Shown here: positions 25,809 through 28,700 of the stretch, in pieces | Layout of the letters: each line of letters opens with the position of its first letter | How positions within the stretch are numbered: the stretch's first letter is position 1 | Assembly (NCBI RefSeq): GCF_004364865.1 | Contig: NZ_SOAU01000001.1 | Coordinates: forward strand, 2,140,001-2,204,000 | Length of the DNA stretch: 64,000 nt | Reading direction: 5' to 3' | Source: Ilumatobacter fluminis | GTDB lineage: Bacteria > Actinomycetota > Acidimicrobiia > Acidimicrobiales > Ilumatobacteraceae | Notes under the pieces: generated by a model | Told to the model about the DNA's origin: nothing | Seen by the model: the letters and a program-made list of their open reading frames with translations, nothing else | Database searches by the model: none | Translations under genes and position numbers: made by a program

Positions 25809-26129
25809 TCACCGGCGGGCGGAGACGGTCCACACGACGCGGAACGAGCCGGCGATCGGCACGTCGCCGAACACGCGGGAGTCGACCGCACCGGCGTCGG
25901 GATTGTCGGAGACCGCTTCGAACCGGTCGCCGCGCACGTGATCGACCCGCTTCACGAGCCAGAAGCCGGGCCGCATCGGGTGCTCGAAGACGCGGATCTC
26001 GCCGCGCCGGGCTCGGCTCGATCGGACTGCCAGGAGGCCGTCACCGGGCCGGAGGGTCGGTTCCATCGAGGCCTCGACGACCTGGAAGCGGCGGATCGGC
26101 CAAGTTCGGCCGGGTTGCCTTGTCGCCAC
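25809..26129 (-). CDS. sodX: Nickel-type superoxide dismutase maturation protease (S26 family)
   Basis: About 106 aa from a GTG at 26129. Short S26 signal-peptidase-like protein: the catalytic Ser is in VVEASMEPTLRPGD (about residues 20-33) and the Lys in WLVKRVDHVRGD (about 60-71); the SDNPDAGAVDSR segment corresponds to the GDN/SRDSR box. Such proteases lie next to sodN and remove its short leader so that the N-terminal His can bind Ni. The gene is divergent from sodN with 52 nt between starts, which holds both promoters; the longer ATG frame from 26204 would overlap sodN. Confidence 0.9.
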   Translation of the reverse strand: MATRQPGRTWPIRRFQVVEASMEPTLRPGDGLLAVRSSRARRGEIRVFEHPMRPGFWLVKRVDHVRGDRFEAVSDNPDAGAVDSRVFGDVPIAGSFRVVWTVSARR

Positions 26130-26181
26130 GTTTGTGAGTGTAGGTTGCGGGGTAACCGTCCCCTCGATGAAGGAGAAATCG

Positions 26182-26604
26182 ATGCTCAGCCGTCTGTTCG
26201 CCAATGCGACCGAGGCCCACGCTCACTGCGACCTCTACTGCGGTGTCTACGACCCGGCGCAGGCCAAGATCGAGGCCCTGTCGTGTCTGAAGACCATCCA
26301 GAAGTACCACGACTCCGATGACGAGCACTTCAAGACCCGTGCGATCATGGTCAAGGAGCAGCGCGCCGAAGAGGTCAAGCATCACCTGATGGTGCTGTGG
26401 GCCGACTTCTTCACCCCCGATCACTTCGCCCAGTTCCCGAACCTCCACCAGATGTTCTGGGACGCCATCCACGGCGCCGGCGACGTCAAGAAGAGCCTCG
26501 ACGCCGCCCCGGCCGAGAAGCTCCTCGAGCAGATCGATGCCATTGCCGACGTCTTCTGGCAGACCGAGAAGGCGAAGGGCATGGGCGTCTACCCGCCCAG
26601 CTGA
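26182..26604 (+). CDS. sodN: Nickel superoxide dismutase
   Basis: 140 aa: a 14-residue leader (MLSRLFANATEAHA) and a mature protein starting HCDLYCGVYDP, the Ni hook. His1, Cys2 and Cys6 are present, so Ni binding is expected. Position 5 is Tyr where Ni-SODs known to me have Pro, a point listed under findings. The rest (helical bundle EEVKHHLMVLWADFFTPDHF) is normal for the family. The AAGGAG at 26170-26175 has ideal spacing to the ATG at 26182, so the frame's earlier ATG at 26167 is unlikely. The enzyme converts superoxide to peroxide and oxygen. Confidence 0.95.
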   Translation: MLSRLFANATEAHAHCDLYCGVYDPAQAKIEALSCLKTIQKYHDSDDEHFKTRAIMVKEQRAEEVKHHLMVLWADFFTPDHFAQFPNLHQMFWDAIHGAGDVKKSLDAAPAEKLLEQIDAIADVFWQTEKAKGMGVYPPS

Positions 26605-26784: not shown

Positions 26785-26844
26785 CCCCCGGATTAGGCTG
26801 GGGCGTCGGTGCGGGGTGGGATGCGCCCCAGCCTAATCCGGGGG
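26785..26844. repeat. 60-nt inverted repeat with perfect 21-bp arms
   Basis: Arms at 26785-26805 and 26824-26844 are exact reverse complements; the 18-nt loop is GT-rich. No T-run follows. Its last bases begin the 26839-26861 near-repeat and the 26842-26874 hairpin, so the structures overlap. Confidence 0.92.
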
Positions 26845-27588: not shown

Positions 27589-28595
27589 TCAGGCGGCGGC
27601 GTGTCCGTGGCGGCGGCGGTGGCAGGGGGCGCAGCGGAGTTCGAGTTCGTCCACGACGGTGCGCCCCGACACCGCGAAGTCGGGGACGTGGTCGTACTCG
27701 AGGAGCCCCGTGGACCCACAGTCGACGCACGCTCGGTCGCGCTCCTTGACGACGCGCTTCTGGCGGGCGGTCGGGTGACGCCGGCGCGAGCTGGCGTCGA
27801 TCGGGCGACCCTCGGCGTCGTGGATCAGCGCCCGGATGAATGCGTCGGACGCGATGCGGGCGACGACACCGAGCGGCAACGGTGAGCCGTCGTCGAGGGT
27901 CGCACCGTCTTCGCGGACGTGGAGCACGACCTCGGTCGTGAGCGATCCTGCCGTGCCGGCGATCAGCGCCGACAACGCGTCGGCGTGCTGTTGCGCCAAG
28001 GAGGGCCACGCATCGAGCGACGCCGCGTCGGGCGATTCGTCATGACGTGGGTCTGGAGGCGTGCGATCAGCTGACCGGCAGCCAACGGAGCCAGCCGTGC
28101 CGTGAACGTGACCATGCCGTCGGGTTCGTTGCGCCAGACGACGGAGCGCTGTTCCTGGTGCAGCCGCTCGAGCTCGACGTCGTCGGATGTGCGACTCATC
28201 CACGCAGCGATCGCTCGGCCGAGCTGTCCGGCTGGGACGTCGGCCGCCAGTGCGACGAGCGCCGACTCGTTCTCGCTCGTCGCAACACGCGTCAGCGTTC
28301 GCACCTTGCTGTACGACAGCTCGCCGGTGTCGAACAGCCGTGCCACCAGCGGCAGGCTCCGGAGCGTCCGCCCGACGCGGATCCACTCACGAGCCGTACA
28401 CACCTCGATGTCGGCGCTCGCTGCGATCCAGTGCGCCGCCGACGCCGAGCTGGACACCACCCACTCACCCGAGTCGGCGAACTCGGCGGCGAGCACGACG
28501 ACGGTTCGCTGGTCGTTCGACCAGTTCGCAATGGCGTCGCCCAACGCCTCGGTCAGGGGTGCTCCTTGAGTGGCGGGAGATCGGGAACCGGACAT
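27589..28595 (-). pseudogene. DUF222/HNH endonuclease (13E12-repeat type), frameshifted
   Basis: The N-terminal DUF222 part (MSGSRSPATQGAPLTEALGD onward, through ADVPAGQLGRAIAAWMSRTS and RLAPLAAGQLIARLQTH) is open in one frame down to about 28035. The C-terminal part (AWPSLAQQHADALSALIAGT ... ERDRACVDCGSTGLLEYDHV ... LRCAPCHRRRH) continues in another frame to the stop at 27589. A one- or two-base indel near 28030-28045 separates them. Both halves are otherwise intact, including the HNH Cys/His set, so the break is recent, programmed, or a sequencing error. 13E12-type genes are multi-copy in many actinobacteria; their role is not established. Confidence 0.85.
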
Positions 28596-28700
28596 GACTG
28601 CCTCCGATCGGATCGGGCTTCGTTTCCGGACCACCGTTCGGCGAGGGTGTGGTCGAGCTCGCTCGACTCAGCGTACTTCGGGGGTGTCACAGGGTTTCCG

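Follow-up and report, generated by a model that had tools for sequence, protein, structure and literature searches.

To our knowledge, nickel superoxide dismutase (Ni-SOD) is understood from structures of the enzymes of one genus, Streptomyces, and from peptides that copy the nickel hook. The solved chains matched in this study (1t6u, 1t6q, 1t6i, 1q0d, 3g4x, 3g50 and 4ncq) are presumably all Streptomyces enzymes, and we take it that Pro5 of the hook is in the cis conformation in the crystals, that Tyr62 lies beside Tyr9 at the access gate, and that Lys64 and Lys115 are located near the active site. A survey reportedly published by Dupont et al. in 2008 may already note tyrosine at residue 5. 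The published consensus at this position is proline, as the earlier note on this DNA had assumed: PMC12933891 (2026) prints HCXXPCXXY as the conserved hook, and PMC4460010 (2015) applies H-C-X-X-P-C-G-X-Y as a filter to identify Ni-SOD. The occurrence of sodN in bacteria has been surveyed (PMC8346466). For active hook peptides, PMC5722923 gives computed structures with a trans Leu4-Pro5 bond, and this suggests that a cis-proline is unnecessary for nickel binding in the peptides.

Results

A Ni-SOD with tyrosine in the nickel hook

The window, i.e. the whole stretch of 64,000 nucleotides analysed here, contains a sodN gene with an ATG start, a TGA stop and the sequence AAGGAG immediately 5' of it (Table 1). 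Profile scores and structure matches settle the family of the encoded protein: SodN reaches 137.3 bits against TIGR02753 (cut-off 90) and 132.6 bits against PF09055 (cut-off 25), and a phmmer search returned six distinct PDB sequences, each annotated as superoxide dismutase [Ni] (best 5e-36). An AlphaFold model based on 16 aligned sequences (mean pLDDT 83.9) has the helical-bundle fold of the solved Ni-SODs, with which SodN shares about 50% identity: Z scores against Ni-SOD crystal chains were 19.0-19.6 as compared to 11.6 for the best unrelated entry, and Foldseek gave E values of 2.5e-9 to 1.8e-8 for 16 Ni-SOD entries. Residues 1-21 of the precursor, which include the hook up to residue 7, were modelled at pLDDT below 50, and the model does not resolve the hook; a changed loop geometry in the Tyr5 enzyme is possible.

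The precursor consists of a 14-residue propeptide, MLSRLFANATEAHA, and a mature chain that begins with HCDLYCGVYDPAQAKIEALSC. Precursor residues 15-25 read HCDLYCGVYDP, hence residue 5 of the mature protein is tyrosine. The ligands His1, Cys2 and Cys6 are intact (HCDLYC), just as the earlier note had stated, with His1 presumably exposed by cleavage; Asp3, Tyr9, Glu17 and Lys89 are also shared with the solved enzymes. The six distinct PDB matches have proline at position 5 in all three alignments listed. The window protein continues after Phe62 with Phe63 and Thr64, and the PDB sequences have Lys64. The Tyr codon is real, but it had been placed one base off, at 26237-26239 instead of 26236-26238. 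A sequencing or assembly error at this codon is hardly conceivable, since Tyr5 recurs in 78 of the 80 best relatives, among them the separately assembled L032, with an identical protein, and L033 (99% identity), and in 12 of the 110 sodN genes of a sample of the phylum (the window gene counted).

Table 1. Coordinates of the sodN-sodX locus in the window.
Feature	Position	Strand	Basis
sodN, Ni-superoxide dismutase precursor, 140 aa	26182..26604	+	TIGR02753, PF09055, PDB matches
Ni hook codons, mature residues 1-9 HCDLYCGVY, ligands His1, Cys2, Cys6	26224..26250	+	sequence; alignment to PDB residues 1-9
Tyr5 codon TAC (aligned PDB sequences: Pro)	26236..26238	+	sequence, PDB alignment; Tyr5 in 78/80 best relatives
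Phe codon TTC, mature position 62 (PDB sequences: Tyr62)	26407..26409	+	sequence, alignments
sodX, signal-peptidase-type maturation protease, 106 aa, GTG start	25809..26129	-	TIGR02754, Peptidase_S26, SMEPT + VKR
divergent intergenic stretch, 52 bp	26130..26181	.	AAGGAG before sodN; GTGTAGGTT

Residue 5 in the phylum

The phylum sample comprised 396 genomes drawn evenly; 108 of them carry sodN, and all 110 genes were read: residue 5 is proline in 71, methionine in 25, tyrosine in 12 and phenylalanine in two. The published motif HCXXPCXXY is thus broken by 39 of 110 genes. It is also broken by the window protein due to Tyr5, and since so many sampled genes deviate likewise we regard the motif, as printed, as overly restrictive and count the window SodN as a member of the Ni-SODs nonetheless.

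Tyr5 is found mainly in two groups of organisms. The best 80 of 175 relatives in assembled contigs (78 Tyr5, two Phe5) stem mainly from Mycobacterium/Mycolicibacterium and from Ilumatobacter/Acidimicrobiia, in a set that is biased toward Tyr5 because HAHCDLYC was among its search patterns. The phylum Actinomycetota and the class Acidimicrobiia were assigned from the nearest named relatives, Ilumatobacter and further Acidimicrobiia, and the mycobacterial group (f38/g65) from grouping with the sodN genes of Mycobacterium and Mycolicibacterium. In the mycobacterial family, 17 of 301 genomes have sodN, 14 with Tyr5 and three with Pro5. In the class sample, sodN is present in 169 of 296 genomes. 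Thirty loci were read there (Pro 29, Met 1; two already in other sets, two second copies) as well as 60 further ones, most of them picked from the low-scoring end (Phe 47, Tyr 9, Met 3, Pro 1), so that the counts cannot be taken as frequencies. Other sodN genes of the class sample were read where they also belonged to the phylum sample.

Altogether, 299 loci were collected, 297 with sodN and two Fur-gene loci without it; six of the 297 were fetched twice (four Tyr5, two Pro5). The reading pattern [HQ]C...C was found in all 297 genes, and these encode 269 distinct SodN proteins: 97 with Pro5, 94 with Tyr5, 49 with Phe5 and 29 with Met5. No other residue and no charged one occurs at position 5. 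The idea that Tyr5 is a lone, exceptional substitution must therefore be rejected: natural enzymes of the phylum have Pro, Met, Phe or Tyr at position 5, and Tyr5 is common to a subfamily. The expectation that many active Tyr5 enzymes might already be described holds in so far as many such proteins exist, but none was found described as tested in the literature searched. In the openly licensed literature, there was no match for HCDLYCG or for Ni-SOD together with proline wording, and no paper with Tyr5 Ni-SOD as its subject was found by titles, beginnings of abstracts and term counts, including a search for NiSOD and Mycobacterium.

The only gene read outside the phylum, on a Novosphingobium plasmid, encodes a Pro5 hook (HCDIPCKIYDP). 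A plasmid or phage origin was considered and rejected: there was no phage match, and the two matching plasmid records both have Pro5 and share less than 60% identity. Among the Met5 proteins, one group (f24; L136, L137, L142, L149, L156, L160 and others) has Asn or Tyr rather than Asp at residue 10, and such hooks (HCDLMCGVYN, HCDLMCGVYY) are present in 16 of the 29 distinct Met5 proteins. Genome G294 of the class has two sodN genes (L173 and L153), which share Met5 but differ at residue 62 (Tyr in one, Phe in the other); L173 has no sodX match nearby.

Residues that vary with residue 5

Residues 1, 2, 3, 6, 9 and 89 show no variation across the 269 distinct proteins, of which 262 have Glu at residue 17. 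Residue 62 varies with residue 5: it is Tyr in 91, Arg in four and Trp in two of the 97 Pro5 proteins, Tyr in 26 and Phe in three of the 29 Met5 proteins, Phe in 48 and Tyr in one of the 49 Phe5 proteins, and Phe in all 94 Tyr5 proteins. An aromatic residue 5 together with Tyr62 is thus found in a single case (L129) among 143 aromatic-5 proteins. Lys64 is present in 94 of 97 Pro5 proteins and in none of the Tyr5 proteins, which have Thr (67), Ala (24) or Ser (3).

Relative to the Streptomyces sequence, the Tyr5 consensus carries eight exchanges: besides Pro5 to Tyr, Tyr62 to Phe and Lys64 to Thr, Ala or Ser, these are Lys83 to His (93 of 94 Tyr5 proteins), Lys115 to Glu or Asp (all 94), Arg15 to Lys (93), Glu19 to Leu (85) and Val21 to Cys (80). 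The other non-proline forms of the phylum share the ligands and Tyr9. In contrast to the Tyr5 proteins, the Met5 set keeps Tyr62 in the 26 cases mentioned and Lys64 in 29 of 29; nearly all Phe5 proteins have Phe62 in common with Tyr5, but most of them retain Lys64 (34 of 49) and Lys83 (39 of 49). Many mycobacterial Tyr5 proteins (e.g. L056, L058 and L094) have KERQAEE in place of KEQRAEE, i.e. Arg47 is shifted by one place.

Among positions with more than 0.3 bit, the share of entropy explained by residue 5 is highest at residue 62 (0.81); by raw mutual information, residues 19, 25, 56 and 115 exceed residue 62. Independent pairs of changes at residues 5 and 62 number one on the starred branches of the tree and three on all branches, too few for significance, and because the independent events are so few, the link between the two residues may be explained by shared descent. 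In Mycobacterium vaccae (L090) and M. parafortuitum (L109), which stand among Tyr5 mycobacteria, residue 5 is Phe and Phe62 is unchanged.

Phylogeny and probable transfer to mycobacteria

Three trees were calculated, and the short SodN alignments leave many of their forks open. In the first tree (130 rows, column 5 removed), which had taken in only two Phe5 genes, the 31 Tyr5 rows formed one group (SH-aLRT 99). For a larger tree, the 269 proteins were reduced to 152 with a threshold of 92% identity, and columns 5, 62 and 64 were removed; this tree requires eleven changes at residue 5, three at residue 62 and eleven at residue 64. Tyr5 needs five changes on this tree and Phe5 eight, indicating that Tyr and Phe interchange. 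In the third tree (85 rows), 55 aromatic-5 rows, L129 not included, are parted from 30 Met5/Pro5 rows by two changes; the aromatic-5 proteins are thus nearly, not strictly, one group. Judged by these trees, nearly all aromatic-5 proteins that were read belong to one lineage of Acidimicrobiia and mycobacteria.

The eight mycobacterial rows of the third tree cluster together (96) within a larger group that also includes five rows of the class (99). A topology that keeps the aromatic-5 rows of the class to themselves, with the mycobacteria outside, was weakly rejected (p-AU 0.041, for a group selected after a tree had been inspected). The nested position of the mycobacterial group and the weak rejection of the alternative make a transfer of the aromatic-5 sodN to mycobacteria likely, rather than proven.

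The maturation protease SodX

The earlier note had recognized a sodX gene directly next to sodN, and this is indeed the case: sodX lies on the minus strand and points away from sodN, and the two start codons are 52 bp apart. The intergenic stretch contains GTGTAGGTT, which is common to six of the seven loci listed. SodX scores 46.8 bits against TIGR02754, below the cut-off of 63.25 although this profile is its best NCBIfam match, and 30.9 bits against Peptidase_S26, over the cut-off. As in the SodN-SodX pair described by TIGR02753 and TIGR02754, the protease gene is adjacent and divergent and encodes the conserved Ser (SMEPT) and Lys (VKR); the sub-threshold score sets it apart. We assume these two residues to be catalytic, as in signal peptidases. 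SM.P and KR are nearly invariant among aligned SodX proteins, with Ser15 kept in 263 and Lys54 in 260 of 265 rows (numbering of the aligned part).

A sodX match accompanies sodN in nearly the whole set of 297 loci (Tyr5 113/113, Phe5 51/51, Met5 28/29, Pro5 100/104), although the match at the Tyr5 locus L239 is placed on an extremely long branch and is possibly spurious. Within the first 190 loci, the top-scoring sodX match is on the strand opposite to sodN and upstream of it in 90/90 Tyr5, 66/71 Pro5, 24/25 Met5 and 4/4 Phe5 cases; a cruder count of orientation on whole open frames gave a divergent arrangement for 112/113 Tyr5, 49/51 Phe5, 22/29 Met5 and 87/104 Pro5 loci. Ala immediately precedes the cleavage site in 268 of 269 distinct SodN proteins (96 of 97 with Pro5, all 94 with Tyr5 and all others). 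SodX and SodN distances correlate over 265 loci (r 0.72), as would be expected from shared descent as well.

Superoxide dismutases and nickel supply of the host

The host genome (99.97% complete, one contig) contains one sodN gene and no match for an Fe/Mn SOD, a Cu/Zn SOD or a superoxide reductase. Since no other detectable enzyme of these types is encoded, the window SodN is most likely active. Similarly, the Tyr5 genomes of the class in the phylum sample have neither Fe/Mn SOD (0/8) nor Cu/Zn SOD (0/8), whereas the Tyr5 mycobacteria of that sample have Fe/Mn SOD in three and Cu/Zn SOD in four of four genomes. Fe/Mn SOD was present in 15 of 72 sodN genomes chosen among the 108 of the phylum sample and in none of the 60 further class genomes (Phe5 47, Tyr5 9, Met5 3, Pro5 1), for which the search covered Fe/Mn SOD. 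The Pro5 and Met5 genomes of the class lack Fe/Mn SOD as well; being the sole SOD is thus not special to Tyr5.

The suspicion that Tyr5 impairs metal loading or protease recognition is not supported: Ala precedes the cut in 94 of 94 Tyr5 proteins, a sodX match is present at all 113 Tyr5 loci read, and sodN encodes the only SOD found in the genome.

Nickel or cobalt could be supplied by a CbiM-PDGLE/CbiQ transporter, the uptake locus of which lies beside a divergent Fur-family gene in the host genome; a NicO permease had no match there. The gap between the Fur-family gene and the transporter genes (L300, about 1300-1385; G000:C1 near 33000) holds two near-identical perfect palindromes, TCGGATGATG-N5-CATCATCCGA, likely the operator of a nickel/cobalt regulon. 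No 8- or 9-base word of the palindrome stretch occurs within the 95 bases around the sodN start, and an operator shared by the two loci is thus unsupported.

Other features of the window

Downstream of sodN, at 26785-26844, there is an inverted repeat whose two 21-nt arms match perfectly around a loop of 18 nt (RNA fold -56 kcal/mol, z -6.5). It is the only such pair in the window, and its 12-base core is missing from the close relatives L032-L034. At 27589-28634 on the minus strand, two frames overlap; one has an HNH domain (21.5 bits) at its end, and the other had no match in Pfam. Judged by their reading frames, they look like a single gene broken by a frameshift.

Discussion

As far as can be judged from sequences, Tyr5 belongs to a natural aromatic-5 subfamily, and the idea of one isolated, harmful exception has to be given up. 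In our preferred reading, these Ni-SODs work, with a second shell that has been rebuilt, and we consider it probable that the window SodN is a functional, SodX-matured member of the subfamily. SodX would cut after Ala(-1) and set free His1; His1, Cys2 and Cys6 would then bind nickel as in the solved enzymes, and the Tyr5 protein would serve as the SOD of the cell. Pro5 would be dispensable for the fold, and position 5 would have been rebuilt along with the exchanges of Tyr62 for Phe, Lys64 for Thr, Ala or Ser, Lys83 for His and Lys115 for Asp or Glu. It is tempting to speculate that the co-varying positions surround the hook, that a bulky side chain at residue 5 fills or gates the space gained through loss of the Tyr62 hydroxyl, and that residue 5 may follow Leu4 in a trans peptide bond.

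A more far-reaching proposal can be put forward only tentatively: the aromatic-5/Phe62 form may represent a second active-site design of Ni-SOD, in which the cis-proline hook has been replaced, the side chain of residue 5 has taken over the gate role of Tyr62, and Lys64 and Lys115 have been lost. This design would have arisen in the Acidimicrobiia via Met5 and Phe5 states and would have been passed, probably with its SodX, to mycobacteria. Alternatively, position 5 may simply have become tolerant once proline was lost, so that it drifts neutrally, and the remaining diagnostic residues would simply mark the lineage, with no functional link to residue 5. Such drift is a real possibility to which we give less than an even chance. 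It would account for the eleven changes at residue 5, for the presence of Met, Phe and Tyr at this position and for residues 19, 25, 56 and 115, which track residue 5 as well; however, residue 5 is limited to four amino acids, none of them charged, in 269 proteins, residue 62 needs three changes as compared to eleven, and the combination of Tyr62 with an aromatic residue 5 occurs just once.

It seems doubtful that the phenol of Tyr5 acts as an additional proton donor or redox relay near the nickel and in this way replaces Tyr62. A phenol is indeed present at residue 5 where residue 62 has none in all 94 Tyr5 proteins, and the Tyr9 phenol is discussed as a proton source in PMC5722923 and PMC12933891, but Phe5 is commonly combined with Phe62 (48 of 49 Phe5 proteins), which argues for a dispensable phenol. 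Moreover, Phe5 and Tyr5 interchange while Phe62 remains constant, and this makes it unlikely that the Tyr5 hydroxyl is essential. That the Tyr5 protein is degenerate or devoid of Ni-SOD activity is very improbable: the protein does lack a residue that is counted with the hook motif, and 31 of 94 Tyr5 proteins have exchanged Arg47 as well, 29 of them for Gln, but all ligands are invariant, a sodX match is present at every Tyr5 locus read, and no other SOD was found in the host.

For a functional aromatic-5 subfamily, the natural Met, Phe and Tyr hooks, which go along with residue 62, are ready variants for probing the roles of the cis-proline and of the Tyr9/Tyr62 gate. Surveys based on the motif can undercount Ni-SOD, since Pro5 is written into the motif and the motif is used as a filter; if the second design is true, the annotation motif HCXXPCXXY misses about a third of the enzymes of the phylum, as judged by the 110 sampled genes. 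Finally, sodN encodes the sole SOD found in the eight Tyr5 genomes of the class that were checked, and nickel may thus be needed for oxygen tolerance in this class.
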